A stretch of DNA of 51,254 bases from an uncultured Clostridia bacterium (GTDB lineage Bacteria; Bacillota; Clostridia; Christensenellales; Pumilibacteraceae), in NCBI GenBank assembly GCA_947175335.1, contig CAMWMF010000013.1, forward strand, positions 1-51,254. The letters are read 5' to 3'. Position numbers and translations under genes: made by a program. The notes under the pieces are model-generated. The model was given only the letters and a program-made list of their open reading frames with translations, did not search any database and was not told where the DNA came from. Within the stretch, counting starts at the first letter, position 1; every line of letters starts with the position of its first letter. Below are positions 5,137 through 21,598 of this stretch, one piece after another.

Positions 5137-5211
5137 GGGCAATTAACTCAGCGGGAGAGTGCTACCTTCACATGGTAGAAGTCACAGGTTCGAACCCTGT
5201 ATTGCCCACCA
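5137..5211 (+). tRNA. tRNA-Val(CAC)
   Basis: A complete cloverleaf can be folded by eye: acceptor GGGCAAT / ATTGCCC, D-arm ACTC / GAGT, anticodon stem CTACC / GGTAG with loop TTCACAT (anticodon CAC, reading GTG valine codons), and T-arm ACAGG-TTCGAAC-CCTGT. The CCA end is encoded (5209-5211). Its last 17 bases serve as the attachment site of the integrated island, so the 3' end now present was supplied by, or matches, the element. A terminator follows directly. Confidence 0.97.
5195..5211. repeat. attL: tRNA 3'-end copy of the 17-bp direct repeat
   Basis: CCCTGTATTGCCCACCA, identical to 19353-19369. It covers the 3' side of the T-arm, the acceptor strand and CCA of tRNA-Val. Confidence 0.88.
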
Positions 5212-5213
5212 AC

Positions 5214-5321: not shown

Positions 5322-6824
5322 TTACAAAGCAATCACAAAACGACTTGTAACGGTCATTTTGTAGTTTTCTTGCAAAATAAAATCCCGACTGTCCGTGTCA
5401 GGACTATCGGGATTAGTTCGGTCGGAGTAGTTAAACCATACCACTATCTCATTGTCATATAATTCTATTCTGTTTACAAGCACTTCTATAAGCACTTGTG
5501 GGGATAATTCTCTTACGCTGTTTGTTAGGTATTCCATAACTTCTTCTTTGGTTATGCCGTTTTCCAACTTGCTTTCTTCAACGAGTATTTTTCCATTAAG
5601 TTCATCTATGCGTTGTTCAAGTTCTGCCATTCGGTTCTTTGTCGTCGTGTTTATTATGCCTTCTTCAATAGCGGTCAGTATATTGTTTAAGCTCTTTTCC
5701 GCCTTTGCTTTATCTTCTTTGAGTAGTTTCAATACGGATTGTTCCGTTCTGTTCTTTTCATGTATTCGCATTATCTCATCTGCTATTATGTCAAGATTGA
5801 CTTTATGTGTGAATAAATCCATAGCCATATCTAAAACAGTTTGTTCCAATACTTCTTGCTTCACTGTTTGTTTTTTACAGTTCTTTGTATTCCGTTTCTT
5901 GTTTGAACACTTGTAAAAGAAATGCTTTGCGCCTGTGTGGCTTGTTCCGCTATCTCCGTTTATGGCTTTACCACAGTAGCCACAGAACACTTTGCCTTTA
6001 AGTAAAAACGTTGTTTCTTTGCTTACTTGTCCTATACGGTTATGTTCTATCTTTCGTTGGACTTGTTCGAATGTGTTTAACGGTACTATTGGCGGATAGA
6101 TGTTTGTATATACTTTTCCGTGTATTTCGTACTTGCCTATGTACTTTGAGTTATGCAAGATATTGTAAAGCGCGTTCGGTAAAAACTTTTTGCCACGATG
6201 TGTTATTCCACGCTTTTCCAAATGCGAAATAATATCTTTTGCCATATAACCGTTAGCGTACATAGTGAATATTTCGTTTACTACGTCGGCTTCGTTTTCG
6301 TCAACGATTACTTTCTTATTGACTACTCTGTACCCATACGGAATATTACCGCCGGTAAACAGTCCTTTGTTGCGATTTTCTTGTAAACCACGACTTACTT
6401 TTTGAGACAACTCGGCACTGTAATATTCGGCAAGCCCTATGTAAACATTTTCGAGTAGTATGCCGTCAAGGTTCTTCGTTCCGTCTATGTTCTCGGAAGT
6501 TCGCTGTGTCGCCGAAATTAAAGTCTTACCGTTCTTTTTGAGCTTTTGCTTATTAACTGCTATCTCGATTGAATTTCTACCGAAACGATCAATAGCATAG
6601 ACAAGCACTATTTCAAAGGCTTTATTCTTTTCACTATCCGCCAACATCTTTTGAAACGACGGACGATGGTCGTTTGTTCTCGTCATAGCTTTATCTATGT
6701 AAGTGTCTACAACGTACAGTCCGTTATGTTGAGCGTATTCGTTGCATACTCTCAACTGACTTTCTATACTTTGTTCATTTTGTCGTTCACTCGAATACCG
6801 AGCGTATATAACTGCATTCTTCAT
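5322..6824 (-). CDS. Large serine recombinase (site-specific integrase)
   Basis: The 500-aa protein is a large serine recombinase that would catalyse integration and excision of the island. The N-terminal resolvase domain begins VIYARYSSERQ, with the catalytic serine predicted at residue 11 and the family DRFGRN motif following. Then come the Recombinase domain (including GLFTGGNIPYGY and ILHNSKYIGKY) and a zinc ribbon (CGYCGK ... C ... C), followed by a coiled-coil region near residues 360-450. I chose ATG 6822-6824, which has AAGGAG upstream and gives the canonical MKNAVIYARYSS start; a longer frame to 6935 exists but lacks support. It points toward the tRNA and ends about 70 bp beyond the tRNA terminator. 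Large serine integrases rarely use tRNA 3' ends, which is a point to check. Confidence 0.94.
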   Translation of the reverse strand: MKNAVIYARYSSERQNEQSIESQLRVCNEYAQHNGLYVVDTYIDKAMTRTNDHRPSFQKMLADSEKNKAFEIVLVYAIDRFGRNSIEIAVNKQKLKKNGKTLISATQRTSENIDGTKNLDGILLENVYIGLAEYYSAELSQKVSRGLQENRNKGLFTGGNIPYGYRVVNKKVIVDENEADVVNEIFTMYANGYMAKDIISHLEKRGITHRGKKFLPNALYNILHNSKYIGKYEIHGKVYTNIYPPIVPLNTFEQVQRKIEHNRIGQVSKETTFLLKGKVFCGYCGKAINGDSGTSHTGAKHFFYKCSNKKRNTKNCKKQTVKQEVLEQTVLDMAMDLFTHKVNLDIIADEIMRIHEKNRTEQSVLKLLKEDKAKAEKSLNNILTAIEEGIINTTTKNRMAELEQRIDELNGKILVEESKLENGITKEEVMEYLTNSVRELSPQVLIEVLVNRIELYDNEIVVWFNYSDRTNPDSPDTDSRDFILQENYKMTVTSRFVIAL

Positions 6825-7881
6825 TTTTATTAACTCCTTTTTTGTTATTGATTTTATTTTGTCTTTCGACGGGAGCGACCGAAACGGAAGCGCAAGAATA
6901 ATGTTACTTTCAAAGCGGTTACTTCTTTTTTGCAAGGGCTGCGTAGCAGTGCATTTTACCCTTGCGAAAAAGTGCGCTTTCGTTTAAGCTCCACTGGCGA
7001 AAGACAAAAGGTGTTGTGCATATATAAAAACGCACTAAATTATAAAATCTTATCTGTTGAAATCATTTTCTTTTGTAGTGTACAATGTGGAATGAGCAAT
7101 TACAAGAAACTAAATCTACGGTATTTGTATACCCTGCACAGCAGTTTTTAAACCCTACCTATACTCAACCTATACTTTGTATTTCGCTATGAGTATAACA
7201 GGCTAATTTTCAAACCGTCACAATATCCGTCCTATGAAAACCAAATGTCGCTTTCGAAAACACTAACACAACCCAACATTAACACTAACTAAATCGTAGT
7301 TTACAATTGAGCGTAACAACAGTGTAATATATTTAATAAATCTTTGCATACTTCTCAATAGGTGCTAAACATATCTTAAACCAGTGTTACCCCAGATTAC
7401 CGTAAATTAAAAACGCGACGCTATGAAGCAATCGCGCAAAGAAAGAAATATATAGCAAGACAATGCGGCAACAATCCGAAACACGCCGCCGAACGGAAAC
7501 AAAGGCGATTGCCAAGCGGTTCAGCGGCGACGCCTTTGTTCGCTCGGCGTTTCAGTTTTGTCATTTTCTTGCTTTTCGTTGGACGTGCGCTTGTCTGCGC
7601 CGCGTAGCGGCGCACTTGTATCAAGACAAGCGCACGCCGTAAACTCAAAGCGGGTTTATTTTGTAATTAACTATCTAAAAAATGCCGACTTTTATGGTAG
7701 GAAAATATATTTTGCACATTGAAACCTTATATAAATTATGTTGAATTATTTATCAATTGAGGCAGAGTAGAATGAACAGAGTCTCGGTTTGCGTACTAAA
7801 AAATAGTTTAATTAAACAAAACTGTTATGTGCTTTACTTTTGTGTAAGTTTTTGATATAATTTTTATGGAGGAACATTCTT
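6825..7881. other. 1-kb non-coding stretch upstream of STAND gene
   Basis: No gene with a ribosome binding site is visible. 6936-7015 holds small hairpins (for example GCAAGGG / CCCTTGC at 6933-6975). 7050-7400 is AT-rich with two tandem ACCTATACT units near 7157-7176. 7411-7640 is suddenly GC-rich, with a CGCCGC-GTA-GCGGCG hairpin and no start codon in its open frames; it may be a scrap of a former gene. The remainder is AT-rich leader of the STAND gene. Confidence 0.5.
7833..7861 (+). promoter_or_regulatory. Probable promoter of STAND gene
   Basis: TTTACT (7833-7838), 17-bp spacer, TATAAT (7856-7861). The gene's ATGGAGGAACA ribosome binding region begins a few bases downstream, so the 5' leader is short. 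Confidence 0.55.
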
Positions 7882-10485
7882 ATGAAAAGTTATGAGTCGA
7901 ATTCACTATTTAGACGTGTAGAGATGTATGCAATGATTAATTCCATAGAAAATGATTTTATTGAAAATTATAGTGATAAACTTACGGTTGATTGTATTCC
8001 ATGTGAATTAATTAATAGAGCGCAAAACGTAGGAGATAAAAATAACTTATCTGATATATTACGCGGATTGGATATTCAAGCCTATATTGAAATAGCTAAT
8101 GCTAACATAGTTAAGTTAGGAATTTCAATAAATGAAAAAAAATTTATTAATACAAATTTATGTAAGATAATCAATATAAGGAATAGGGTTATGCATCCAA
8201 GATTATTTGAGTTCTTTGACTATAGTATGTTAAAAGAATGCTTTGAATGTATAGCAGAACAATTACCATCATTCAAGTGGAATAATGTTTGTAATGTTAG
8301 TAGAATAATCAAAGAAAATCCAGCTGAATTAAAGAGATATGAAATAAATTTAGTTAAGAGTAATAGTGTTATTGAAAATCTACCCACAGTAGTTGATTTT
8401 GACGATACTTCTTTTATAGGTAGGAAGAAAGAGATAAATGAGATAAAAGTTAAATTGTTGAAGAATAATGTTCATATACTCACGATACTGGGAGATGGCG
8501 GTGTTGGAAAGACTGCATTAACAATAAAACTTCTATATGATTTACTAGATGATGATAAGAATCCATTTGAGTTAATTTTGTGGGTGACTTTAAAGACACG
8601 CGAATTAAATAATTATGAGTTTGCAGAGATATCAAATTCTATCAATAATATACATCAAATGTACGATAGATTAAATGATTTTGTAGGCGGAAATGGAGAT
8701 GATGTAAAGCAAAACTTAATAGAAATATCAAAAACTTTTAAAACTTTATTAGTGCTGGATAATCTGGAAACTATTAATACTGAAGATGTAAGGGATTTCT
8801 TAGAAGAATTTTCCGAAAATAGCAAGGTGATAATAACATCGCGAATTGGATTGGGGGAAATGGAGTATAGATATGTTTTATCAGGATTATCGGATGATGA
8901 CTTGAAGTTGTATGTTGACACCTTATTAGAATTGCATGGTAAAGATAATTTTTTTACGGAAGATGAAAAACTTAAGTTTGCTAAGGAGGATTTGCATGCG
9001 AATCCGTTAGCAATAAAATGGTTTGTTCGTGGCATAGCAGATGGGCAAAATCCGACTGAATTGCTTACAAACAAAGATAATTTAATTAGATTCTGTATGT
9101 CAAACGTTTATGAAAAACTTTCAGAGAGAGCGAAAAAAATTATAGTAATAGCAAAAATCATTATGAAAGATGTTGCCTTTGCAGAATTAGCATTTGTTTT
9201 AGGTAATGATTATGATGAGGTTGAAGTGCGAGGAGCAATTAACGAATTATGCAAATGTAATTTTCTTGACTCTGAAAAGTTCCAGTTTTCGGGCATTATA
9301 TCAATAACAGATTTTGCGCAGGAGTTTGTAAAAATAGGAGTTGAAGAAGACTCGGAGATTAAGGCGACAGTCAAAGAAAGACTCAAGCAACTAAATGCAT
9401 TTGATCAAAAGATGATTGAGCGTAGAAATAGCTGCCCATACTCAATTAAAACTTTCTATTACAATAATTCAGAAAGAAGTAGATCTGTTGCGGCGTATTA
9501 CCTCAACGAAGCGATAGACGCAGCTTATAGGAAATTAATGGATTTAGCGTTTGATTATATTTATTTAGCTAAATCTTTATGCCCAAAATATTTTGAGTGC
9601 AATAAAATCGAGGCATATCTTCTTAGAGTAACCGATCCGCAAAAGGCTATTGAAGAATACGAGATTGCTAAAAAGAATGCTATCACTGAACAAGAGCTTA
9701 GGTTGATTTATATTAATTACAAAGAATTTTGTTTATCAAATAATGATTACGAGGGGGCATTAATAGCTATAGAGAAAGCTATTGTCATACATGATGAAGT
9801 CCTATTGCAATTTGAAAGAGTAAAAATATTGGCCTGTATCGGCAGATATGCTGAGGCAAAAAACATACTTGAATCTATCGAAGATATATGTCGTGACGAT
9901 AATAAACTTGAAAATATATTCAATGTTAGGAAAGCGGACATTGTCAAAAGGGAATCTGAGTCTATTAAAGATAACAAGCAAAGAATAGCATTATTAAAAA
10001 ATGCATGTCAAATTATTAAAGGTACAAAAGAAATGGATTCCAGTTCATTGAATTACTTATCTACTTTATTGCGAGAATTAATGCATTTTTATTATGATAG
10101 TAATGTCATTGAATACGTATATGGTATATTATCGTCTGTAGATAGCTATATTTTTAAGTCAAAAGGGTTGAGAGATATAAGAAAACGAGTGTCTGATATC
10201 AAGGATCGAATACCATACTGCGAACATCGAAATGAGTTTTTAATTATGCTAATAGACTACAATGCTATTATGGAAACACTTCAAGATAATGAAGGTATAG
10301 TTTATAGTTTAAAAGATAAGTATGGATTTGTGAAAAATAAGCAGTTCTATCAGGGTATTTATTTCTCACTTTCTGACGCGTATGATAATGTACAACTAGG
10401 GGATATTGTTCAGTTGGATGATGTTTATATTACTCCAAGAGGTTTTGTAGTCAAGAATGTAAAACTGTTAAGGCAGACAATATAA
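7882..10485 (+). CDS. STAND NTPase: HEPN, NB-ARC, TPR, cold-shock-like C-terminus
   Basis: The 867-aa protein has four parts. Residues 1-135 are helical and contain RNRVMH (R100-N101...H105), the Rx4-6H signature of HEPN ribonucleases, in a Swt1-like arrangement. Residues 175-480 are an NB-ARC type ATPase: GDGGVGKT (204-211), LLVLDN (289-294), VIITSR (316-321) and NPLA (374-377). Residues 550-780 are helical repeats of TPR type. Residues 800-867 resemble a cold-shock/OB domain (GIVYSLKDKYGFVKNK ... GDIVQL ... GFVVKNVKL). STAND proteins of this form are sensors that oligomerise on a trigger and switch on an effector; here the effector is probably the HEPN RNase, pointing to abortive infection defence. 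The role is inferred. It is a single-gene unit with its own promoter and a GGAGG site, inside the tRNA-Val island. Confidence 0.88.
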   Translation: MKSYESNSLFRRVEMYAMINSIENDFIENYSDKLTVDCIPCELINRAQNVGDKNNLSDILRGLDIQAYIEIANANIVKLGISINEKKFINTNLCKIINIRNRVMHPRLFEFFDYSMLKECFECIAEQLPSFKWNNVCNVSRIIKENPAELKRYEINLVKSNSVIENLPTVVDFDDTSFIGRKKEINEIKVKLLKNNVHILTILGDGGVGKTALTIKLLYDLLDDDKNPFELILWVTLKTRELNNYEFAEISNSINNIHQMYDRLNDFVGGNGDDVKQNLIEISKTFKTLLVLDNLETINTEDVRDFLEEFSENSKVIITSRIGLGEMEYRYVLSGLSDDDLKLYVDTLLELHGKDNFFTEDEKLKFAKEDLHANPLAIKWFVRGIADGQNPTELLTNKDNLIRFCMSNVYEKLSERAKKIIVIAKIIMKDVAFAELAFVLGNDYDEVEVRGAINELCKCNFLDSEKFQFSGIISITDFAQEFVKIGVEEDSEIKATVKERLKQLNAFDQKMIERRNSCPYSIKTFYYNNSERSRSVAAYYLNEAIDAAYRKLMDLAFDYIYLAKSLCPKYFECNKIEAYLLRVTDPQKAIEEYEIAKKNAITEQELRLIYINYKEFCLSNNDYEGALIAIEKAIVIHDEVLLQFERVKILACIGRYAEAKNILESIEDICRDDNKLENIFNVRKADIVKRESESIKDNKQRIALLKNACQIIKGTKEMDSSSLNYLSTLLRELMHFYYDSNVIEYVYGILSSVDSYIFKSKGLRDIRKRVSDIKDRIPYCEHRNEFLIMLIDYNAIMETLQDNEGIVYSLKDKYGFVKNKQFYQGIYFSLSDAYDNVQLGDIVQLDDVYITPRGFVVKNVKLLRQTI

Positions 10486-10660
10486 GTTTTAACAAACGTA
10501 TCTAACTTTGTTCATTATTGATTAAAACCGCTTTTGCATTATACAATAGTTAATAATTTGTTCATCTGTTTAATAATGCTTTGAGTAATATAATAGTAAG
10601 AGTTTTGGTAGTAAGTTTCATAAAAACAATATTGTTGTGAATATAGGACTATCAAGCAAA

Positions 10661-11107
10661 TTAATCACTACTTTCATACTTCATGAATCTCGGATATTGC
10701 ATAACAAACGCGGGCGTCCGCCATACGCAGAACAGTTCGCGTGTCAGGGAATTTTGGTGTTTGATAATAGCAGGTACTCTGGCAAGCGAAAGTTGCAAAT
10801 AAGCCATGTGAACGCACCGTAAGTCAATGTCCGAGCGGTCTACAAAGCAGTCCATTGCGTAGTTTATATCGAGGTCGTTTTTAAGTGCGTCGAGCGTTGC
10901 CATCATCATACCGACACTACCGCAACACTGATCGTTTATCGTCAGTATCTTTCCTTCGGCTTTATTGGGCGCGCCTATGCCTAGCTTTGCGCATAGCATA
11001 GAAACGTGGTATAGTGTAAAGAATTGCCCCATGTATTTGTTACCCATAAAGCAGCCCATAAACAGTTCACCGAGATAATCGTAGAAATGACCGTATTCGA
11101 AATACGG
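10661..11107 (-). pseudogene. N6-adenine DNA methylase remnant
   Basis: Read on the minus strand, the frame gives DYLGELFMGCFMGNK, then GQFFTLYHVSMLCAKL, then a degraded NDQCCGSVGMM and YLQLSL, in the order of an N-6 DNA methylase (GQFFTPYHV, DPCCGSGGM, IQLSL). The N-terminal part is missing: upstream, the same frame runs straight into the TGA stop of the next remnant at 11108. The C-terminus at 10661 may be natural. Several key positions are changed (the Pro of FTPYHV is Leu; the SAM-binding CGSGG is CGSVG), so the protein is unlikely to work. Such methylases are common in Firmicute conjugative elements, so this marks the island's ancestry. Confidence 0.7.
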
Positions 11108-11380
11108 TCAATCGTCTTTGTCGTGGATTAGGTTGAACGTATCTCGTGTTATCTTCCCGCAGCGTGTTATATCTACCGTAATCGTTTCACGGACGAAATT
11201 GACACCTATTATGTAAAAAGTAATCTCGTATTCACCGTCATCATAACTAAATTCCGAGAGATAGTATTTATTTGCACCTGTTTCTTAGATATTTCTAAAT
11301 GCCTCCTTGATTGAATTGGCCTTTCGGCAGGAAGCGATGTAACACTGTTCGGTAATTGACAATTGATTACAAATCAACAT
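11108..11380 (-). pseudogene. Broken small gene of element type
   Basis: A frame from ATG 11378-11380 (MLICNQLSITEQCYIASCRK) runs to TGA at 11108-11110 with one in-frame TAA about 42 codons in, just before ETGANKYYLSEFSYDDGEYE. The later part, EITFYIIGVNFVRETITVDI, is a coherent strand-rich sequence, so this appears to be a gene split by a point nonsense mutation. I do not recognise the family. It sits directly upstream of the methylase remnant on the same strand, as part of the same decayed operon. Confidence 0.5.
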
Positions 11381-11504
11381 GCAAAAGTCAACGCAGGGGC
11401 AAAATCAGTGCGTTATAGCAACAAAAAAGCCGAGCATTATAACTCGACTGTTTAAGAATGATTATTGGTTTAAGTGCTGATTTTGAACCAAGATTGACTT
11501 TTGC
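11381..11504. repeat. Nested inverted repeat enclosing a terminator-like hairpin
   Basis: Arms 11381-11408 and 11477-11504 share GCAAAAGTCAA and CAAAATCAG in inverted orientation. Between them, on the minus strand, GTCGAG-TTATAAT-GCTCGGC is followed by TTTTTTG, a likely intrinsic terminator. It lies just upstream of the broken gene at 11108-11380 and could be its attenuating leader. Confidence 0.55.
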
Positions 11505-11601
11505 GAGAAATGTGCTTCAATCACCAACCCGAAAGGCTCAATCAAGGACGTCTATAAGCCATTTTAATTTAGTTTCAATTATAAGATGACGCCGCTTTAA
11601 C

Positions 11602-11630
11602 TTGCTTTTTTTTTAATTCTGTGATAAAAT
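11602..11630 (+). promoter_or_regulatory. Probable promoter of the seven-gene operon
   Basis: TTGCTT (11602-11607), 17-bp spacer, TAAAAT (11625-11630), 31 bp before the first ATG. Confidence 0.55.
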
Positions 11631-11661
11631 TTATATGGATTGTTTTACATAAGGAAAATTT

Positions 11662-13530
11662 ATGAAAAAGTTTAGAAAAAAGTTCGGATATCTAACGAAT
11701 AATGATATCTTCATAAAAACATTTTGGATAGCGGTAGAAACCATAGTTTCAGCTTTTGTAGGCGCTCTCATAGCATTTGTTTTTGGTGAAAATTATATAG
11801 CGGCGCTCATCGCGTTTATCTCAATTATGGCTTTTTTGATTATTATTTGTGCTATTTTGCTTATTCTTGAAAACAAAGTAAGTGTTTTATCAATAATGAA
11901 ACGTGGATTAAAGGAAAGAAAATATGAAGATGTTATTAAATTTGGCATTTCAATGAGCCCGACATTATTTTCGTCGAACAAAAACGAGGACCGCGTATTA
12001 TTAGGAACAAAAATACAAGAAGCTGTGGAGGGCATTAAACAAGGGCAAAAGAAATTTAACAGTGGTAACATTGATTATGTTATAGCTATGGACGGTAGAG
12101 ATGAGCCACTCTCCGTTATCGAAATTACGTTACTTCTTGATGATTTAGGTTGGTCTTTACATTTATGTAACGAAAATGAGAAAGCAATCGCAAATATAGT
12201 AAGAGGTATTAAATTAGCTTCGTCAAAAGCTAAAGAGATAATTGCCCAACAGACAAATGAAGTCCTAACAAAAGGGGCCATAAAATTAATAAAACCATAT
12301 GTTAAACTAATGATGCGCGGGTATCGTCATTTAAGCGGAATTTATTATGCTGATAGAGATCATTATACATATTCGCTATACTATGAAAATGCCGCTAGAA
12401 TTATTTTATCGGTTGGCTTAATATTGGAATGCGGCGGCATATGTGAGAAACGAATTAATGATAATGGAATATGTCGAGCAGGAATTTACTGCGAAAAGAG
12501 CGCACATGAGAAAACGAAATGCGTTTATGATAACATAAAAAATATATATTTCAATTTTGGTCAGGACTTTAATTTATCACAAATATCCGATGAAAAAATA
12601 TATGATTTTCTAGGCGATCGCGTTCAAGGGCAGCTAGATATATATGATATTAAAGAGGCGACGCATATTTTTAACAAATTGCCGGCGGATGTAAAAGATA
12701 GCATTGTTCGTGAGCAATGCTACGCTTGGGGTAGAAATATCGTTAAAAGATTGACTAACAATCGAAATAATTTTGATTTTTTACCCGATGAAGAATTGAG
12801 ATGCAAAAGCGCTGAAGCTAGAGCTCTTGCCTACGCATATTATTACGGTGCTATCGATGATTTTAACGTCGATATCTCTAATAAGATATCGGTATTAGGT
12901 AAAAAGGAACTTCGCTATCTAAGCTTAATAAATGAAATTGCATTTATAGATTTATATACTCCTATACCAAATGTTAAAGAGAATTTCGAGCACAGTGGCA
13001 TGATTGATGATTTACATAAAATTGAGAATTTAATAAAAGAGTTGGAGCGAGTATGCGCGCAATGTAGGGATAAGCGAGGAGACCTCTATATTCGAAACTC
13101 ACTCCATTTGATGGAGGCATATTTAATAGAGTTTAATTTAAAATATCGTTATAGAATTGATAGCGCAAAAAACAATTATTCGGATTTACTTGTTTGCCAA
13201 AAGAAAATTGCAAATGTGTATTCGGATTTAAAAAATTATGAGAGTCAAGCTTCGGAAGAGATTTACGCGACTTATGGTCAGATATCTGCTGAAATATGTG
13301 TAATTAAGAAAGAACTCAAGAATCGCCGAAAAACTATTAAGGGCAAGAAAAGAATAAAATACGAAGAGCGTGATATGATCCTAGTGGAAAAAATCTTAAA
13401 TGGTTCTAAAGACAAATATTTGACGCACGATGCTTTAGAACATATAAAAAGGCAAGTATTTGATTTTGATTTGGATCAAGAGCATCAAAAAAGAATATCC
13501 GACATAAAAACAGTTTGGGGGGTAAAATGA
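11662..13530 (+). CDS. Two-helix membrane protein, first gene of island operon
   Basis: I do not recognise this family. The 622-aa protein has two hydrophobic segments (about residues 22-43 and 45-69) at its N-terminus, followed by some 550 residues of soluble, mainly helical sequence that should lie in the cytoplasm. The middle part contains a cysteine-bearing stretch (CGGICEKRINDNGICRAGIYC, near residues 255-275) that might bind metal. The C-terminus is basic and helical. The start is ATG 11662 with AAGGAAAA upstream. Its TGA overlaps the ATG of the next gene, so it is translationally coupled to the kinase pair. Being membrane-tethered and first in the operon, it could be a sensor, scaffold or export partner; this is a guess. 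Confidence 0.8.
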   Translation: MKKFRKKFGYLTNNDIFIKTFWIAVETIVSAFVGALIAFVFGENYIAALIAFISIMAFLIIICAILLILENKVSVLSIMKRGLKERKYEDVIKFGISMSPTLFSSNKNEDRVLLGTKIQEAVEGIKQGQKKFNSGNIDYVIAMDGRDEPLSVIEITLLLDDLGWSLHLCNENEKAIANIVRGIKLASSKAKEIIAQQTNEVLTKGAIKLIKPYVKLMMRGYRHLSGIYYADRDHYTYSLYYENAARIILSVGLILECGGICEKRINDNGICRAGIYCEKSAHEKTKCVYDNIKNIYFNFGQDFNLSQISDEKIYDFLGDRVQGQLDIYDIKEATHIFNKLPADVKDSIVREQCYAWGRNIVKRLTNNRNNFDFLPDEELRCKSAEARALAYAYYYGAIDDFNVDISNKISVLGKKELRYLSLINEIAFIDLYTPIPNVKENFEHSGMIDDLHKIENLIKELERVCAQCRDKRGDLYIRNSLHLMEAYLIEFNLKYRYRIDSAKNNYSDLLVCQKKIANVYSDLKNYESQASEEIYATYGQISAEICVIKKELKNRRKTIKGKKRIKYEERDMILVEKILNGSKDKYLTHDALEHIKRQVFDFDLDQEHQKRISDIKTVWGVK

Positions 13531-14117
13531 AAACCGTTTACTGGGTTTTAGGAGCTATAGGAAGTGGGAAGAGCATTATCAGCGATTACCTTTTCTCAGA
13601 GCCGCCTTTTAAATCGCTTGAATATCTTGGATCTGATTTATATAAAAAGCAGTTCTTTGATTATGATGCAAATAAAAGTAAAATCGGATATCGTTGTGCC
13701 GATGATTTAGTTTTTTATCGCTTACATAAATTATGCATCTCAAATGTTGATTTCATATTTGAGTTTTGCCCTACAAATAGAAATAAGTTAAATACAATTA
13801 AAGCAATATTTAAGAAATATGGTTACAGCGTTATTGCTTTTTTTATAGGAACAGACAATCGTTCTGTAAACCGTAAAAGGTGTAGCGAGCGTGAAAATGC
13901 GGGCGCGGATCCTGTAGATCCCTCTAAAGTGCTTGCGAGATATGATGAAGCCCTATTTAGAATACCTGAGTTGTTGAGTGTGTCTACGAGACTATATCTA
14001 GTAGATAATAGTGACATAGATGGTCTTAAATTAGTGGCCTATTTTACCAAGAAAAAGGCCTATGTTTTGCAACCGGACTGTGTTTGGTTGAAGAAACTCA
14101 ATTCAATATTTAATTAA
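13527..14117 (+). CDS. P-loop kinase (AAA_33/zeta-like), first of two
   Basis: The 196-aa protein is a small P-loop kinase. It opens with a Walker A motif GAIGSGKS (residues 9-16), has an acidic position in the following SDLYKKQFFD region, and a probable lid arginine cluster (RSVNRKRCSERE, about 113-124). This architecture is shared by AAA_33, zeta-toxin and small metabolite kinases that phosphorylate nucleosides, sugars or aminoglycosides. The substrate is unknown. I chose ATG 13527, which overlaps the previous gene's TGA (ATGA); a TTG four codons earlier is less likely. A second, unrelated-looking kinase follows after 10 bp. There is no antitoxin-like partner, so a toxin role is not favoured. 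Confidence 0.82.
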   Translation: MKTVYWVLGAIGSGKSIISDYLFSEPPFKSLEYLGSDLYKKQFFDYDANKSKIGYRCADDLVFYRLHKLCISNVDFIFEFCPTNRNKLNTIKAIFKKYGYSVIAFFIGTDNRSVNRKRCSERENAGADPVDPSKVLARYDEALFRIPELLSVSTRLYLVDNSDIDGLKLVAYFTKKKAYVLQPDCVWLKKLNSIFN

Positions 14118-14127
14118 GGAGTAAAAA

Positions 14128-14829
14128 ATGCACAACTTTATACCCGAAGCCTTAGCTCATAAAATTGTTTCTTTTTGTATAGAGCATAAATTAAGGTTTG
14201 TTTTCATTTCTGGCAATGGTGGCGCCGGAAAAACTGAACTTAGTAAACTGATACGTAGTGAAACCCAAAAATATGGGCCATGCAATACTATTGATATGGA
14301 TGAATTTGTTGTGGATACAAAACTGCGCAACAGTGCATCTTTATCGTGGATTGACGTTGACAATGGTTTGGAGCGAAGTGGTAAATATTCTACTACATTT
14401 GCAGCCTCATACTTTTTGCAAAACATTAAGGCCATCCTTTGTAATCTTGAAAGAGGTAATAATTATTGGCATTGGCCTAAAAGAGCAAAATCTTCAAAAG
14501 AGAGTATTTTAGAATATAAAGCAGACGCATTGATTACTATCGTAGAGGGTATAGGATCAGTTTTTATTGAAAAGGATAATTCAAAAACACTAAGCATTTT
14601 TATGCAATGCGATGGAGAAATAGAAATCAATAGGCGTATAAAGCGAGCAAAGTATAGCAATGAACAAGATCCTAATGAAGTGAGACGGCTTTATGAAGAA
14701 CGAAATAGTCAATTCAAAGCTAATATTTTACCATATGCTGATGAACATAATTTAATTTTACAAAGTCGAGATGATTTCAGTTTAGATGTTATAAAAGATG
14801 AACTCGGTGTACTATGCAATATAAGCTAA
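14128..14829 (+). CDS. P-loop kinase (uridine-kinase-like), second of two
   Basis: The 233-aa protein has a Walker A motif GNGGAGKT (residues 29-36), a TIDMDEFVVDT segment (around 54-64) resembling the substrate-site DxDxF/Y of uridine kinase and phosphoribulokinase relatives, a Walker-B-like hydrophobic strand (ALITIVEGIGSVF) and an arginine-rich lid (RRIKRAK). It is expected to transfer phosphate from ATP to a small hydroxylated molecule. The start ATG 14128 follows a strong AAGGAG site. Its 3' end overlaps the HAD gene by 16 bp. With the neighbouring kinase and phosphatase it suggests a pathway through phosphorylated intermediates. Confidence 0.82.
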   Translation: MHNFIPEALAHKIVSFCIEHKLRFVFISGNGGAGKTELSKLIRSETQKYGPCNTIDMDEFVVDTKLRNSASLSWIDVDNGLERSGKYSTTFAASYFLQNIKAILCNLERGNNYWHWPKRAKSSKESILEYKADALITIVEGIGSVFIEKDNSKTLSIFMQCDGEIEINRRIKRAKYSNEQDPNEVRRLYEERNSQFKANILPYADEHNLILQSRDDFSLDVIKDELGVLCNIS

Positions 14830-15488
14830 TTATTTTTGATTTAGACGATACTCTTTTTGATTATAATCGTACAGAACAAGTAGCTGTTGAGTTCGCTTGT
14901 AATCAACAAGGAATTCCATACTCGTCTAATACTTATATGAAATACAAAACGGCCAATTTAACAGCAAAAACGAGAATAAAAAGTTATCTACGGAATTTAA
15001 CTAAATTTCGCAAAATGCGTGTAGAAGTTTTTTTTGAGCTATTATCATTCACAAATGGAGATGCTTCAAAATTCGTAGATGATTATCTTGAGTATTCAAA
15101 AATTGGAATAATGATAGACGGCGTGGAAGAAACCATACCTTGTTTAAATGTGAAAAAAGTTGTCGCAACTAATGGCTCGGATATTCCCCGTTATAATAAG
15201 TTCATTAATTCTACTATTGCTCCTTATTTTTCAGCTTTTTATTCATCTGAAAGGCTAGGGTCAATCAAGCCAGATGTGATGTTTTACAAAAAAATTCTTT
15301 CCGAAATGGGCACATCCCCTAGTGATGCATTAGTCGTTGGAAATAATTTTGAGACAGATATACTAAGTGCACTTAATTGTGGATTGGATGTTTGTTGGTT
15401 TAACTGGAAGATGGAGGCTGTTCCAGAACAATATTCTAAAATTAAAGTAATTTATCAGTTTCAAGATTTACAAAATATCATAGGATAA
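14814..15488 (+). CDS. HAD-superfamily phosphatase (YjjG-like)
   Basis: The 224-aa protein has all four HAD motifs: DLDDT (residues 9-13) carrying the nucleophile Asp and the acid/base Asp, TNGS (motif II), SIKPD (motif III lysine) and GNNFETDI (motif IV). The cap is helical, as in subfamily I phosphatases such as the nucleotidase YjjG. It should dephosphorylate a small phosphate ester. The ATG lies inside the previous gene's 3' end, so the two are coupled; the next gene begins 4 bp after its stop. Within this operon it may remove a phosphate added earlier by a kinase, or proofread the pathway. Confidence 0.88.
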   Translation: MQYKLIIFDLDDTLFDYNRTEQVAVEFACNQQGIPYSSNTYMKYKTANLTAKTRIKSYLRNLTKFRKMRVEVFFELLSFTNGDASKFVDDYLEYSKIGIMIDGVEETIPCLNVKKVVATNGSDIPRYNKFINSTIAPYFSAFYSSERLGSIKPDVMFYKKILSEMGTSPSDALVVGNNFETDILSALNCGLDVCWFNWKMEAVPEQYSKIKVIYQFQDLQNIIG

Positions 15489-15492
15489 AATT

Positions 15493-16290
15493 ATGAAAAA
15501 GTATATTAATTTTAATTACAAAATAGATTCTCCTTATCAGCAACGTGCAGCAAATATAAAAGCGGCTGGCTTTGACGGCGTATTCATTTATTCTCAGTAT
15601 CAACCTAGAGAATATGTTAAAATAATTCAAGACACAGGATTAAAAATAGAAACACTTCACTTGCCGTACAAAAAATTTGAAAATGGAACACTGGTCGATT
15701 CGAGACATGTTAATGTTTTGTGGCAAAATAATATTATCGGCGACCAATATGTGGAAGATTTGATTAATGAGATTGACTTTGCATATCAAAATAAAATTGA
15801 TACTCTTATTATGCATATAACCGGTGGTGATACCCCCCCACCAATTTCTGGCATTGGATTGCAACGTATCGCGAAGATAGTTAAATATTGTGAATCACTA
15901 AATCTCACGCTTTGTTTGGAAAATTTAAGACGACTAGAATATCTAACTTATATCTTTAGCCAAATAGAAAGCGAAAATCTAAAATTCTGTTTTGATTCCG
16001 GACATGCCAATGTAATGACGCATAATGTAGATACATTTCCTTGGGATGTTTTTGGTAATAGATTGCATTGTCTACATTTAAACGATAATTTGGGTGATCA
16101 CGATAAACATCTTATTCCTTTTAATGGGAATATAGATTGGAGTAAAGTGATGGAGATCATATATTCTTATAATCCAAATATCAATCTTACTCTTGAAGTT
16201 AGAGCAACGCAAGAGCAAAGATGTATTTCAAACGAAACGCTTTATCTCGAAAACTGCTATAAAAGTTTATGTGTACTTGAGAAAATATAG
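15493..16290 (+). CDS. TIM-barrel sugar isomerase / AP-endonuclease-2 family enzyme
   Basis: The 265-aa protein belongs to the xylose-isomerase-like TIM barrel family. Visible metal-site motifs are LENLR (Glu at about residue 140), CFDSGHAN (Asp and His at about 162-165), LHLNDN then GDHDKHLIPFNGNIDW (His ligands) and LEVR (terminal Glu). Family members isomerise or epimerise sugars, and one, AsbF of petrobactin synthesis, is a 3-dehydroshikimate dehydratase that works beside NIS synthetases. That parallel matters because an NIS synthetase gene follows after 9 bp. Which reaction it performs cannot be told here. The start is ATG 15493 with AGGA upstream. Confidence 0.87.
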   Translation: MKKYINFNYKIDSPYQQRAANIKAAGFDGVFIYSQYQPREYVKIIQDTGLKIETLHLPYKKFENGTLVDSRHVNVLWQNNIIGDQYVEDLINEIDFAYQNKIDTLIMHITGGDTPPPISGIGLQRIAKIVKYCESLNLTLCLENLRRLEYLTYIFSQIESENLKFCFDSGHANVMTHNVDTFPWDVFGNRLHCLHLNDNLGDHDKHLIPFNGNIDWSKVMEIIYSYNPNINLTLEVRATQEQRCISNETLYLENCYKSLCVLEKI

Positions 16291-16299
16291 GAGTTGCTA

Positions 16300-17613
16300 A
16301 TGAAAATTGAAGAGTATTTGATTAATCCTATTGAGACATATATCAAAACAGAGCGATATATAAATGACGGATCTCCAAGTGGATTTTCTGAACAAAATAA
16401 AACATCTCCGGAAACATCTCCGAGAAGCAGTATCCTGTCGTTTGACATCTATTCGTTTGAACTAAACGAAGGTGTCACCGTAGAGAATATTGGGGCCCCG
16501 CATAACTTTAAAATTCCTAATAATATAATATATGTTCACCCCGATATGATCTCAGAACCTATTTGGAGTAAAGAATATTATCATCAATGTGCTGGCGTAG
16601 AAGTTAGTCCTACTGCCAGTGGCCGAACGGTTCTTGCCCGGGGCCAAACTCCTTTTTTTATTAAACTAGCATATCCAAAATGTTTAGGTCGGTTAATTAG
16701 ACACATGGGTAGAGACAAGATTCTATCGGCATGTGAAGTAACAAAACATTTGATGCAGGCCGTTGAGTCTAGGAAAACAAATCCAAAATTCTCGTTTTTG
16801 CGCGAGGATTATGGACGTGTGGCATATATACCTGCGGTTTCGGATATGGATCAAACATATCCATTGGTAAACGGCTTCTATGAATGGGGGATGCTGTTAA
16901 GAGAGTTTAAACCCTATCCTTACATTAACGAAAACGAATTTTTATTACCGTTTTTTGCCTTGTTTGGCAAAGAATATATTCCGGGCAGTTTAACCTCTGC
17001 AGCGCATCAGGATTTACCACTTGTTTTGCAACTTTATCAGCGGCAAACGCAATATAAAAAATTAGAGGAATATTTACTACAAGAAGTCTTGTTTCCACTT
17101 TTTGATACATACTTTGATGCATTATTATTGGCGGGAATTGAATTAGAAGCACATTCGCAAAATATGTTGATAAGTCTCGATAATAATCTTCGGGTTTCGA
17201 GAATAGTATGCCGAGATTTGGAGTCTGCTGGTAGAGATGGCACATTAATGGAATATTTGCACATTCCTTTTCAAAAACTTTGTCCTTACAAATATAATTA
17301 TTTAACTGATATAGAGCCTGATCAGAAGTATCCGAAATGGCAAATTACCCATAGCTTTATGTTTGATTTCAAATTAGGCGAATATTTGGTTTCCCCATTA
17401 TTGAGTTGCTGCAAAGAGTATTGTGATGAACTTAATCTGTCTAAAATCGAGGAAGATATCAAAGAATATAACGAACACTTTATTTCCATGTTGCCTAAAG
17501 ATTTCTTTCCTCCCGAGTGGTGCCACTATGAAAAAATAAATTTTGAAAAAGAAGGAAAAAAACGTGAATACATCTGGCAGAAAAATCCGAAATATCGAAG
17601 AGTTCGAAATTGA
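16300..17613 (+). CDS. Shortened IucA/IucC-type NIS synthetase
   Basis: The 437-aa protein looks like an NRPS-independent siderophore (NIS) synthetase, the enzyme class that adenylates a carboxylate and condenses it with an amine or alcohol. Conserved spots are SPTASGRT (residues 103-110, the ATP-binding S-x-x-S-x-R-T region), FIKLAYPKCLGRLIR (120-134), AAHQDLPLVLQLY (234-246), EAHSQN (283-288) and CRDLES (304-309). It is about 150 residues shorter than typical family members, mostly at the N-terminus. I chose ATG 16300 behind AGGAG. No other siderophore genes (acyl carrier, hydroxylase, exporter, receptor) are near, so the product may not be a siderophore. The next gene overlaps its 3' end by 50 bp. 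Confidence 0.75.
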   Translation: MKIEEYLINPIETYIKTERYINDGSPSGFSEQNKTSPETSPRSSILSFDIYSFELNEGVTVENIGAPHNFKIPNNIIYVHPDMISEPIWSKEYYHQCAGVEVSPTASGRTVLARGQTPFFIKLAYPKCLGRLIRHMGRDKILSACEVTKHLMQAVESRKTNPKFSFLREDYGRVAYIPAVSDMDQTYPLVNGFYEWGMLLREFKPYPYINENEFLLPFFALFGKEYIPGSLTSAAHQDLPLVLQLYQRQTQYKKLEEYLLQEVLFPLFDTYFDALLLAGIELEAHSQNMLISLDNNLRVSRIVCRDLESAGRDGTLMEYLHIPFQKLCPYKYNYLTDIEPDQKYPKWQITHSFMFDFKLGEYLVSPLLSCCKEYCDELNLSKIEEDIKEYNEHFISMLPKDFFPPEWCHYEKINFEKEGKKREYIWQKNPKYRRVRN

Positions 17614-18535
17614 AACGAATGCTCTTATTGATTATCTAAGCATACAGGTAGATTTGAATGTTAAAGGTGTTTTTTCTACTTTTAACGATGTAACTGTTTG
17701 CCAAACATTCAATGGTGGCGATTGTCTTCAAGAAGTGCGGTCGCTTAGCAAATTCGTTTTAGGGATGTGTATAGGCGTACTTCACGAAATTGATTCGTCA
17801 TCATTTCCTATAGAAATGGAAATATGGCCATATATAAAAATGCATTATAACGGAAAAGTGCTGCCTGCACCATCCACTGAATTGAAACAAGCAAAAGTGT
17901 GGCATTTATTAACTCAAACAATAGGATTTGAAAAAAAAGAATTGCTCTTTAGTCATACCGTTAAGGATATCAACCCAGAACTCTATCTTGACTATTTGTT
18001 AAAGGAGCCAATAATTTATGAAAATGGCGAAAAGTTTTGTTATTCGAATGCGAGTGCATATTTGCTTTCTGTGGTATTTCAGCAGTTCCTTGGCATGAAT
18101 CTTTATGATTTTGCAATTGACAAATTATTTAATCCATTGAAGATAGATTCGCATGAATGGGGTAATTATGGTTCATATTGCTGTGGGGCAACAGGATTAA
18201 AGTTGCACTGTAAAGATATACATAAGTTGGGAATATTAGTCTTGAAAAACGGAGTTTGGAATAACCGAAGAATTATTCATTCGGAATACTTAAAAGACAT
18301 GACTTCTGCTAAGGTAAAAATAGAAGATCCCACATTTGTAAACAAACCGCTATCGCCGACGCATTATGGATATTTTACTTTTATAGATAAAGAAAAGAAT
18401 TACTTCGCAAATGGCGCAAGGGGTAAATATATTGTTGTTCTACCAGAAAAATCATTAGTTTTAACAGTCATAGCAGATACATCTGCAACTACTTTATTAC
18501 AAAACATTATAAAAAATTATATAGACAGATTTTAA
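17564..18535 (+). CDS. Beta-lactamase-fold serine hydrolase
   Basis: The 323-aa protein belongs to the class C beta-lactamase / serine hydrolase family (esterases, D-aminopeptidases, transpeptidase relatives). The SxxK motif is S60-L-S-K63 and the Y-x-N motif is Y160-S-N162; a GARGK near the end replaces the usual third motif (KTG or HxG). There is no signal peptide, so it is probably cytoplasmic, unusual for a penicillin-recognising enzyme. I prefer GTG 17564, which has GAAGG seven bases upstream; a TTG at 17543 would add seven residues. It is the last gene of the operon and overlaps the NIS synthetase. It could hydrolyse or transacylate the synthetase product. Confidence 0.82.
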   Translation: MNTSGRKIRNIEEFEIETNALIDYLSIQVDLNVKGVFSTFNDVTVCQTFNGGDCLQEVRSLSKFVLGMCIGVLHEIDSSSFPIEMEIWPYIKMHYNGKVLPAPSTELKQAKVWHLLTQTIGFEKKELLFSHTVKDINPELYLDYLLKEPIIYENGEKFCYSNASAYLLSVVFQQFLGMNLYDFAIDKLFNPLKIDSHEWGNYGSYCCGATGLKLHCKDIHKLGILVLKNGVWNNRRIIHSEYLKDMTSAKVKIEDPTFVNKPLSPTHYGYFTFIDKEKNYFANGARGKYIVVLPEKSLVLTVIADTSATTLLQNIIKNYIDRF

Positions 18536-18695
18536 CCGCATATATTGGTACTCTTTGTCGTGAGGTTATGTTCAAAATCATTTCAATTAATTATCTACAC
18601 GTAGTTTATCAATATAGAGTAATACAATGAGAAAAAAATATGTTGCATAATGTACTTTAAAGGTTCGACATTGGTTGTTGTCAGTCCACTAATCA

Positions 18696-19135: not shown

Positions 19136-19219
19136 TTGCTAAAATACAAGGATGCATTTGGCTATGCTTTATGGGAATATTCGGAAAAAGCAGAGGGACA
19201 ATACAATTTTGGAGAGTAG
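19136..19219 (+). pseudogene. 27-codon fragment resembling a methyltransferase N-terminus
   Basis: A TTG at 19136 with TGGAG upstream opens a frame KYKDAFGYALWEYSEKAEGQ that ends at TAG 19217-19219. The start resembles small-molecule SAM methyltransferases (DAFGxxLxxYxxG). The end coincides with a copy of the GGGCAATACAA...GAGTAGCGC motif also seen at 21573 and 22765, so the fragment appears cut and fused to a repeat. Confidence 0.35.
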
Positions 19220-19330
19220 CGCGACAAAGTAAGGTACATTACATGGTAAAGCTATAAAAGAATTTGTTACATGAATTACAGTTACGATATTTTGTCGCGC
19301 GGTTCGCTAGCCGCTTGCGCAAAGCGCAAA

Positions 19331-19354
19331 GGCCGCCGCGAATTCGCGGCGGCC
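19331..19354. repeat. Perfect 24-bp palindrome abutting attR
   Basis: GGCCGCCGCG-AATT-CGCGGCGGCC, GC-rich in an AT-rich setting; its last two bases are the first two of the attR core. It may be a recombinase or accessory-protein site, or a leftover hairpin. Confidence 0.75.
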
Positions 19355-19369
19355 CTGTATTGCCCACCA
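19353..19369. repeat. attR: second copy of the 17-bp direct repeat
   Basis: CCCTGTATTGCCCACCA, identical to the tRNA-Val 3' end at 5195-5211. It carries no intact tRNA upstream, as expected for the distal end of an island integrated at a tRNA. Confidence 0.88.
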
Positions 19370-19372
19370 GAA

Positions 19373-19405
19373 ATCGGCAAGCGCGTAAGTGCTTGTCGAT
19401 TTTTA
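19373..19405 (+). terminator. Ancestral tRNA-Val terminator (now at the island's right border)
   Basis: ATCGGCAAGC / GCTTGTCGAT stem followed by TTTTTACTT, 4 bp after the attR CCA. Its position mirrors a terminator behind a tRNA gene. Confidence 0.75.
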
Positions 19406-19468
19406 CTTATTCACTCTTCACTCTTAACCACACCTATTTTCGGAGTGAATAGATAAAGTTTTTACTTT

Positions 19469-21271
19469 TCATATTAACGAATGTTTAATATACTCATATG
19501 CCATTACATCGGCAATCGGGTGAAAACAAACATTTTTATTCTTTAATTTGCAGTGTACGTTTTTATAAAAATCATTACATTCCGCCAATATCGCCAATTT
19601 CAAATGCGTGTTTTTTCTTTTGACGTATTTAATTATATTTGCTATGATGTTTTTTATAAGCACAATTAAAGACAATGAAGTAAAAATTATACTGAAAATG
19701 CTCGACAAGCTTTTTATAGTAAATTCGGCGCTTTTTAATTCTTTCAAGCCCATAAAAAATATCGCAAGCGCAAAAATCGAGGTAATTAAGTCTTTACTCT
19801 TTGATATCCACATAAACGCGGATTTTATAGAGTCGATAATACGCGAGAAAACATTTTTGTGCCGTTTTATTTTAACGCCGATAATTCTGCTGTTTTCGAA
19901 TTTTTCGGTGGCTTTTTTCTGCGTTTTGATTATTTGCGCCAAGTCATATTCCGTGTGACACTCACCTAAAATATTAAAATGAAATCTCCGTCGCGAAGCA
20001 TCCTTGCCGTTCAGATTCATTATCGACAAAAATGAAACGCCCTGCAACTCCCAATGGCTCGACGGGCAAATTATATTTAGCTCGGCTTCCGTTTCCCTTT
20101 CAAGCTCGCCCATAAAATCTATACGCGATTTATCGTCAACGTGAAGCGTGGGAATATCCTCATAAACAGATTGTTGGTAAAACCCGACGGTTTTATCGCA
20201 TATTTCGCTTTGCCCGTTTATCGAACAATAGTAAGTATTTGTATCGATCGTTTTTTGCCCGCGCTTGGCTAAAATCAAGTATCCGTCGGCTGTTATAATA
20301 TTACCGGAAACGGCTAAGTTGTGCGCGGAATACGACAGCTCGAGAAACGCATTAACCTTTGTCATAATGTTTTCACTCGAGCCGATGGAATTTTGTAAAT
20401 TATCTACCAGCTTATCTTCATGCTCGTCCATCTCCTCTAGGAGCGGCTTGTATTTTTCGAGAAGTCTGTGATTTTTAATGTATGAGCTGTCAAAAGCATC
20501 CATTGTAGCAAATGTCGAGCGCCCGAACTTAATTCCCAAGCTCATAACTTCCGCATTTGAGTATTCCATATTAAGCCACGAAAAATGTTTGACTCGCGGG
20601 AGCACACCGGAATAATAGCCTTTACCTTGAACCAATGATATACATTCGGCAGATAATTTTTCACGTATATTCTCTATATCTGCAACGCATTTTAATATCA
20701 ATTCCCCTTGCGTATTAATCAAAAAATTATCGTCCAAAGCATTAATGAATTGCTCGCTCGGTTGTCCGAGCAAACGAATACTATGCGATTGTTCATTAAC
20801 ATCGTAGTCTATATTTTTCGTTGCAACATTTGTTGCAATATTGCAGAATAGATCATAGCACTCTGAATTATTGCAAACAAAACTATGCCCGAACATCGTT
20901 GACATTTTGACCAACGTTTTAGCAAATAATGCTCTTGCATATTTGCGCATTGTCGACGGTACTGTAAATAGATGCGCACTATCATCAATAAATTTTTCAA
21001 ACACTTCACTATTTTTGAAATTACCGTTTTTTAAAGCGATGCAAATTTCATCAGTCCCGAATGCGGGCGTTAAACCATAGTAATATTCGCTTTCGACAAA
21101 AGGAATATCGTCCCCAACACCGTTTACTATTGAGCTTTCGCAATTATCGTATATGCCGACAATTGAAAGTTTTTTGTTCGGTTGTACTTCCATAAATGGG
21201 TAAATTATATTTATGTCGCCCTGTTTCGCATCGGCTTTAATTTTTTTACTTATTTCTGCAAACTCTTCCAT
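19469..21271 (-). CDS. Nudix-like domain protein with C-terminal membrane helices
   Basis: The 600-aa protein is unfamiliar as a whole. Residues around 330-430 resemble a Nudix fold: a strand AVSGNIITADGYLILAKRG, then GELERETEAELNI, which has the REx3EL core of a Nudix box but lacks the complete GX5EX7REUXEEXGU pattern. Two hydrophobic helices follow at about 505-525 and 535-560, then a basic tail. It may be a membrane-anchored nucleotide-binding protein. I chose ATG 21269-21271, which has AGGGGG upstream; a longer frame to 21334 lacks a site. It is the first host gene right of the island, facing it. Confidence 0.65.
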   Translation of the reverse strand: MEEFAEISKKIKADAKQGDINIIYPFMEVQPNKKLSIVGIYDNCESSIVNGVGDDIPFVESEYYYGLTPAFGTDEICIALKNGNFKNSEVFEKFIDDSAHLFTVPSTMRKYARALFAKTLVKMSTMFGHSFVCNNSECYDLFCNIATNVATKNIDYDVNEQSHSIRLLGQPSEQFINALDDNFLINTQGELILKCVADIENIREKLSAECISLVQGKGYYSGVLPRVKHFSWLNMEYSNAEVMSLGIKFGRSTFATMDAFDSSYIKNHRLLEKYKPLLEEMDEHEDKLVDNLQNSIGSSENIMTKVNAFLELSYSAHNLAVSGNIITADGYLILAKRGQKTIDTNTYYCSINGQSEICDKTVGFYQQSVYEDIPTLHVDDKSRIDFMGELERETEAELNIICPSSHWELQGVSFLSIMNLNGKDASRRRFHFNILGECHTEYDLAQIIKTQKKATEKFENSRIIGVKIKRHKNVFSRIIDSIKSAFMWISKSKDLITSIFALAIFFMGLKELKSAEFTIKSLSSIFSIIFTSLSLIVLIKNIIANIIKYVKRKNTHLKLAILAECNDFYKNVHCKLKNKNVCFHPIADVMAYEYIKHSLI

Positions 21272-21510
21272 ATTTGCCCCCTGTAACTTAATATTGAATA
21301 GTTTTATTATATCAAAATGTATGTAATAAATCAACCATAAATATTTAATTAAAACTTCATTTTACGTTACCATTGCTCACAATAGCTACACTAATAATAT
21401 ATAATTGATGTTCTTAGGCAAAGAAGAAATCCATCTTACATGTGACTATGATAATGTCCCGTCTTAAAACACGCTTGAATTGACTTATTCGAATTACCGT
21501 AAAATATTCG

Positions 21511-21598
21511 TTTTAGGTTACGACTGCTCCACTTACACACACGGACGCCGAGGCGCCCGTTTTTGCGTTGGTGGCAATACAAAGAAGGTGAGTAGCGC
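21511..21598. repeat. 88-bp repeat, copy A, with tRNA-Val-like core
   Basis: Begins TTTTAGGTT, contains a GC-rich hairpin ending GTTTTTGC, then GGCAATACAAAGAAGGTG and AGTAGCGC. Copy B at 22705-22791 has the same elements at the same spacing. Within it, TGGTGGCAATACA (21569-21581) is the reverse complement of the tRNA-Val 3' end with one base missing. Confidence 0.65.

Follow-up and report, generated by a model that had tools for sequence, protein, structure and literature searches.

NIS (nonribosomal peptide synthetase-independent siderophore) synthetases function, to our knowledge, only in the synthesis of siderophores and other metallophores, and in the petrobactin cluster the NIS synthetase AsbB is accompanied by the TIM barrel AsbF. 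CBASS and Thoeris are antiphage systems that produce signals. Here we describe a seven-gene operon in the genome of an uncultured Clostridia bacterium (contig CAMWMF010000013.1, positions 1 to 51,254; this stretch of 51,254 nucleotides is called the window throughout). The operon encodes a short NIS synthetase, a membrane protein and five further enzymes, and lies on an integrated island. We interpret it, tentatively and with somewhat less than even confidence, as a horizontally moving small-molecule system of signaling or warfare with a core formed by the short NIS and the membrane-anchored protein, whose most likely purpose is defense against phages or rival mobile elements. The enzyme fold is a familiar one; its gene context is new to us, and we know of no described setting for it.

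Operon organization

Seven plus-strand open reading frames (ORFs) are tightly packed between positions 11662 and 18535. The first encodes a protein of 622 residues (MEM, 11662..13530) whose N-terminal membrane helices precede a helical domain that is TPR-like and carries motifs of the DDLGW and RHLxG types. It is followed by a P-loop kinase of the AAA_33 type (KIN1, 13527..14117, start at ATG 13527), a phosphoribulokinase/uridine-kinase-like P-loop kinase (KIN2, 14128..14829), a HAD-family phosphatase nearest to YjjG/YfnB (HAD, 14814..15488), a xylose-isomerase-like barrel (TIM, 15493..16290), a short IucA/IucC-type synthetase (NIS, 16300..17613; 437 residues from ATG 16300, or 439 if TTG 16294 were used) and a SxxK/YxN serine hydrolase of the beta-lactamase fold (BLA, 17543..18535). 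KIN1 and KIN2 are separated by 10 bp, HAD and TIM by 4 bp and TIM and NIS by 9 bp; MEM and KIN1 overlap by 4 bp, KIN2 and HAD by 16 bp and NIS and BLA by 71 bp. With these small gaps and overlaps, a common strand and no internal stop in any of the seven, the gene calls of the initial annotation hold. The last overlap depends on the start chosen for BLA, which has no ATG nearby: TTG 17543 gives the 71 bp, and an ATT near 17609 is an alternative that matches the start position of the relatives.

A short NIS synthetase

The NIS protein scores above the cut-off of Pfam IucA_IucC (PF04183) by a marginal amount (25.9 bits, cut-off 25.0) and below that of the FhuF model (23 bits, cut-off 25.2). Its AlphaFold2 model has a pLDDT of 90.5 and a pTM of 0.92, and the 22 top-ranking solved structures in a structure comparison are all NIS synthetases, so that, as first annotated, the predicted fold of the 437-residue protein is that of an NIS. 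A fold other than NIS was ruled out by the same comparison.

The protein is shorter than its canonical counterparts, which measure 542–595 residues in the solved NIS chains listed. Solved proteins align with it only from their residues 117–151 onwards (from 324 in DfoC, a fusion), and the N-terminal part is therefore missing in the window NIS. Sixteen positions were inspected, which we take, from work on AcsD, to be active-site residues for ATP and substrate. Ten of these (S107, R109, K122, R134, R201, E283, H285, Q287, N288 and D306) are common to both canonical-length NIS proteins, and the remaining six differ in at least one of the two. Within the family, H285 is replaced by N in locus L016 and by Q in L017, and E283 by Q in two Methylocystis proteins.

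AsbB is the best PDB sequence match of the protein, and the matched NIS structures are, going by their titles, all of siderophore synthesis. Together with the fold, this is what one would predict for a metallophore (siderophore-like) cluster, whose NIS would build a metal chelator from citrate-like and amine units. Among the seven proteins, however, Pfam identifies neither an enzyme of hydroxamate or catechol formation nor an exporter or uptake protein (the flanks were not specifically searched for siderophore genes), the only membrane protein is MEM, and TIM has no specific match of the AsbF type. A siderophore product is unlikely because neither a transporter nor chelator chemistry is found among the seven, and we give the metallophore cluster the lowest probability of the explanations considered here.

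Conservation and modularity of the operon

Scanning of genome_contigs with two short peptide patterns, a search that was not exhaustive, recovered 65 stretches and confirmed 11 relatives. L004 and L010 denote one place, and the distinct loci, counting the window, number 12; these counts exclude the Methylocystis plasmid proteins (L005, L006). By tblastn, KIN1, KIN2, HAD, TIM, NIS and BLA are all present in seven of them (the window, L004/L010, L007, L008, L009, L011 and L012; KIN1 of L007 is truncated by the contig end), which belong, by record titles, to Clostridia, Carboxylicivirga, Tannerella and Saprospiraceae. Gene order is identical in six of these seven, the exception being L008, where KIN1 lies between HAD and TIM. 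The conserved order anticipated in the initial annotation is thus found across distant bacteria, and the operon is more than a chance assembly because the order is kept across phyla. An order unique to one genome was ruled out by the retention of the operon in 7 of the 12 loci. Identity matrices of five operon genes correlate with r values of 0.75–0.94 (10 gene pairs; reached by 0–70 of 2000 permutations), in part driven by the near-identical pair L004/L011.

MEM is the first gene in five of the seven full loci (in L012 it is cut by the contig end). The contig of L007 ends inside the operon, so that MEM is not assessable there, and L008 has in its place a 903-residue protein with two C-terminal membrane-like segments, encoded after BLA. 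In all 11 loci where the relevant region is visible, the NIS operon contains or adjoins a gene for a membrane protein, which is either of the MEM type or of this larger type, whose membrane-like segments are C-terminal. The KIN1-KIN2-HAD-TIM cassette is all-or-none by tblastn, being whole in 7 and wholly absent in 5 of the 12 loci, and BLA occurs in 9. Among the loci that lack the cassette, L013 (Rhodopseudomonas) and L017 (a Thermoplasmata archaeon) combine NIS with a relative, of about 770 residues, of the L008 membrane protein and with BLA; L014 (9318-13572) encodes a Nudix protein, NIS, a histidine phosphatase, a MEM-like protein and a YdjC-like protein; and the smallest versions consist of two genes, NIS-MEM in L015 and MEM-NIS in L016. 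NIS and a membrane protein make up the core that recurs, and the two kinases, HAD and TIM together behave like a detachable cassette.

The two-gene loci, which have none of the four precursor enzymes, would also suit a NIS whose target for modification is a membrane-associated protein, lipid or nucleic acid, and a MEM that serves as its scaffold instead of as a sensor; proteins are common ligands of TPR domains, and the fold matches of the MEM model are of this type. The cassette and the fusion of TIM with NIS described below point instead to a small-molecule precursor, and we consider macromolecule modification distinctly improbable.

TIM and NIS are fused as a single ORF in G049 (706 residues) and in L011 (713 residues), whose fused-type operons are closely related, with proteins 84–92% identical; the fusion suggests that the two enzymes may catalyze consecutive steps. 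G049 is a genome of the window's own family, and the window NIS is 50–52% identical to its NIS versus 54% to that of Carboxylicivirga, a slightly closer likeness that is as expected for transfer between phyla.

Several features of the other loci were recorded in passing. In L014, the nearest model of the Nudix protein is IPP isomerase and that of the histidine phosphatase is alpha-ribazole phosphatase, both below cut-off. The large membrane proteins of L013 (11179-13494), L017 (11194-13503) and L008 (12297-15008) form a family of 769–903 residues with no Pfam match above cut-off and two C-terminal membrane-like segments, linked to NIS and BLA. In L015, three large serine recombinase-like genes (1356-6391; the middle one recognized by similarity only) stand in a row just upstream of NIS-MEM.

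The accessory enzymes

KIN1 matches Pfam AAA_33 (28.1 bits, cut-off 27), the columns of its GxIGSGK motif are invariant across six aligned sequences, and its score against the zeta-toxin family (19.9 bits) is under the cut-off of 22.3. KIN2 matches Pfam PRK over most of its length (26.9 bits, cut-off 22) and has phosphoribulokinases as its best PDB profile matches; it also exceeds the zeta-toxin cut-off (24.4 bits, cut-off 22.3), but over a span of 37 residues only. HAD belongs to Pfam HAD_2 (53.1 bits, cut-off 23.8), is similar to YfnB (3ed5, E=7.5e-35) and scores 101.4 bits against the NCBIfam equivalog model of the noncanonical nucleotidase YjjG, under its cut-off of 159.9. TIM matches Pfam AP_endonuc_2 (76.1 bits, cut-off 31.1); it shows a weak likeness to the cobamide phosphodiesterase CbiR (NCBIfam equivalog, 34.7 bits, under the cut-off of 105). 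Plasmid records gave 20 rhizobial matches to TIM, with 23–29% identity among the 10 matches listed, and in the three rhizobial contexts inspected the neighbors are ordinary transporters or regulators.

Sugar or nucleoside metabolism would suit the kinases, the YjjG-like phosphatase and the isomerase-like barrel, and the operon could accordingly be ordinary accessory metabolism that serves the catabolism or salvage of an unusual phosphorylated sugar or nucleoside. This explanation has to contend with the fact that 5 of the 12 loci lack the cassette but retain NIS and a membrane protein, with the lack of a transporter among the seven by Pfam and with the extreme patchiness of the system, and it appears to us slightly less probable still than macromolecule modification.

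BLA matches Pfam Beta-lactamase (PF00144; 37.5 bits, cut-off 27), and the S, K, Y and N of its SxxK and YxN motifs are invariant across nine aligned sequences. It is probably cytosolic, because no membrane-like segment is predicted for it in any of the nine loci in which it occurs. Its profile matches Lsa45 best among solved structures (E 5.1e-27), then 6-aminohexanoate-dimer hydrolase (best 3.3e-16) and, more weakly, ClbP (best 9.1e-7), which is periplasmic. These matches, an enzyme-rich operon and its location on a mobile island could speak for a cluster that produces a secreted specialized metabolite or antimetabolite, a toxic or pro-drug molecule aimed at competitors for which the hydrolase would provide activation or self-protection. 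Yet no transporter family is represented among the seven, BLA has no signal-like segment, unlike ClbP, and the minimal loci hold NIS and the membrane protein only, with or without BLA; a secreted product is therefore, in our estimation, unlikely, if the least so of the alternatives to a defense system.

The membrane protein

MEM matches no Pfam family above cut-off, and its sequence profile finds nothing in PDB at E<=1. Hydropathy shows one strong hydrophobic segment, and the AlphaFold2 model predicts two long N-terminal helices (mean pLDDT 75.1, but 35–70 over residues 1–70). The fold matches of the model are TPR proteins; many helical-repeat proteins are listed, with Rap, AimR and ALPK1 among them. 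We take MEM for a putative sensor/effector. With partners other than those of the operon it was not encountered, as in 341 genomes of the class it occurs only in the window's own.

The integrated island and its rarity

The operon is part of an island integrated at the 3' end of a tRNA-Val(cac) gene (5137..5211, plus strand, ARAGORN). The island extends approximately from 5212 to 18687, and the corresponding empty site was found by blastn in a close relative (G012, L070), whose flanks, 93.5% and 95.6% identical to those of the window, join at window positions 5212 and 18686. The two junctions share a short imperfect similarity. GC content is 31–39% in the island, 47–51% in the left flank, and 37–38% in the right flank up to 22.5 kb and 43–50% beyond. 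Recognizable cargo comprises, besides the seven-gene operon, a large serine recombinase adjoining the left junction (5322..6935, minus strand; best NCBIfam model CcrB, 123.3 bits, under the cut-off of 900), which is the probable integrase, and an NB-ARC STAND NTPase (7882..10485, plus strand; Pfam NB-ARC 40 bits, cut-off 23.5), with no PADLOC match better than E 0.049.

Relatives of the NIS are rare. They were found in 2 of 101 genomes among the relatives of the window, its own genome included; in 2 of 398 of a phylum sample, these being the own genome and a partial match to a longer, canonical-type open frame; and in 1 of 395 genomes sampled around G498 (the L007 genome), which is the seed itself. 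A phage-borne origin was rejected, as the NIS query had no match in phage records and two scans of viral_contigs found no relative. In plasmid records, NIS matched only three Methylocystis records, and KIN2, MEM, the L016 MEM and the L017 large protein had no match.

Elsewhere in the window, the NB-ARC gene and the operon stand 1.2 kb apart (10486-11661); the only ORF of at least 70 residues in this gap is one of 132 on the minus strand, and the gap may hold remnants of older cargo. To the right of the island, positions 19204-21573 are unmatched in the close relative L070 and may be a second variable segment; there, a minus-strand gene (19469-21334) encodes a protein of 621 residues with no Pfam match at E<=1, in which a Nudix-box-like stretch and hydrophobic C-terminal stretches are seen by eye. 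A small lipoprotein-like protein (22931-23578) is full of CxxC repeats that resemble, by eye, DnaJ zinc motifs.

Defense genes in the neighborhood

The flanks of the 12 loci were represented by 104 ORFs of at least 150 residues within 10 kb. For comparison, stretches placed arbitrarily in the same genomes supplied 259 ORFs (2 of 261 were dropped for length), of which a random 104 served as controls. At E<=1e-25, 76 PADLOC families matched the flanks, 25 of which are listed, without assignment to ORFs, versus 7 families in the controls, each in one member. Scanned singly at the same threshold, 8 of the 104 flank proteins had matches. The neighbors include PDC-S37 and PDC-S31 in L004; DruB and DruD of Druantia and PDC-S01 in L011, where DruE runs off the locus and lies outside the 104-ORF scan; a type I restriction-modification methyltransferase and restriction subunit in L017; PDC-S01 in L014; and AbiEii, by Pfam, in L009. 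Adding to the eight the AbiEii protein, the specificity subunit of L017 and an unplaced dGTPase match, we infer a total of about 11 defense-type flank proteins in 5 of the 12 loci, as opposed to 1–7 proteins (SspH, IetA, mad8, mad3) in the controls. A second MTase_I member of the flanks is likewise unplaced. Serine recombinases, by Pfam, number 6 among the flank ORFs and at most 1 among the controls, in which single-member families may be unlisted. The link between NIS loci and defense genes is no more than suggestive, and the early idea of a "defense nucleotide or toxin" gains some support from these neighborhoods, with defense genes placed near some loci.

Several observations weigh against a defense system. 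The contrast of 76 to 7 counts many overlapping families per protein, no defense neighbor was placed within 10 kb in 7 of the 12 loci (51 of the 76 matched families being unlisted), and defense islands also gather unrelated cargo. No operon protein matches a PADLOC 2023 model, the best being JetB at E=0.012, and no clear toxin domain is found among the seven by Pfam. The fold matches of MEM are of a kind expected for helical repeats in general, and the confidence of its model is low in the membrane part, while the NIS of Methylocystis, outside the 12-locus counts, is adjoined by an MFS transporter and has no MEM relative beside it. The functions proposed for all seven members are, moreover, drawn from sequence and context. 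A defense system already covered by PADLOC was rejected for the operon proteins, none of which it matched.

A possible mechanism

Starting from the gene set, the predicted NIS fold, the conserved active-site positions, the gene order, the fusion, the mobility and the neighborhoods, which are all observed, a mobile defense system could operate as follows, with every chemical step, the ligand sensing and the defense role being conjectural. The four-enzyme cassette of the window version would prepare the substrate of the NIS: the kinases and the phosphatase would produce a phosphorylated precursor, sugar- or nucleoside-like, and adjust it, and the TIM barrel would isomerize or rearrange it and pass it to the NIS, its sometimes fused partner. 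The NIS would then adenylate a carboxylate and join it to an amine or alcohol, and BLA would cleave or trans-acylate the product, as eraser or activator; the trimming role proposed for the hydrolase in the initial annotation is a possibility. Finally, the TPR-like domain of MEM would bind the product and its helices would act on the membrane.

More speculatively, and with somewhat lower confidence than for the mobile system as such, the operon could represent a new class of prokaryotic immunity, in which infection would lead the NIS to make a second messenger or warhead that is not a nucleotide, and the TPR-like membrane protein would respond to it. Kinase and phosphatase, and ligase and hydrolase, would act as writers and erasers in a modular system with exchangeable precursor cassettes, which mobile elements would have exchanged among bacterial phyla and an archaeon. 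If true, a mobile operon of NIS and a TPR-like membrane protein, free of iron genes among its members and at times next to defense genes, would extend NIS chemistry to signaling or immunity. Among the literature titles and abstract openings listed, none describes such an operon; the broadest queries were swamped by general phage work and say little.

Comparison with known systems

With NIS synthetases such as AcsD, AsbB, IucA, IucC and DesD (PF04183) the window protein has the family in common, yet it is 12–14% identical to AcsD, and the other six genes of its operon include no siderophore gene by Pfam. The short IucA/IucC proteins of Methylocystis plasmids (three records; contexts examined in L005 and L006) are of similarly small size and 24–28% identical to it, but no relative of KIN1, KIN2, HAD, TIM, BLA or MEM accompanies them in L005 and L006 by tblastn. 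In both (around 9956-11182), the gene lies between DUF1259 and MFS genes, by chromate resistance.

The petrobactin cluster likewise has a TIM barrel and a NIS enzyme in one operon, and AsbB is, as mentioned, the closest PDB sequence. The parallel drawn in the initial annotation finds no further support: at E<=0.001 the TIM profile matches MJ1311 and TTHB071 only among solved chains, its score against the QuiC model is 12.3 bits, and the seven include no chelator-forming enzyme or transporter. TIM is nearer to barrels of the MJ1311/CbiR type, and we know of no counterpart in that cluster for the kinases, HAD, MEM and BLA. A petrobactin analog is not supported by the TIM profile or the QuiC score. 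BLA, for its part, shares the beta-lactamase fold and the SxxK and YxN motifs with 3-succinylated cholic acid synthase and other SxxK serine hydrolases, but scores 75.8 bits against a cut-off of 800 for the synthase family.

Finally, the operon differs from CBASS and Thoeris in that it matches no PADLOC model and has no cyclase or TIR domain by Pfam. Like them, it has variable accessory genes, is mobile and is sometimes found near defense genes, and the likeness otherwise lies in the proposed logic only, in which one enzyme would make a small signal and another protein would respond to it.

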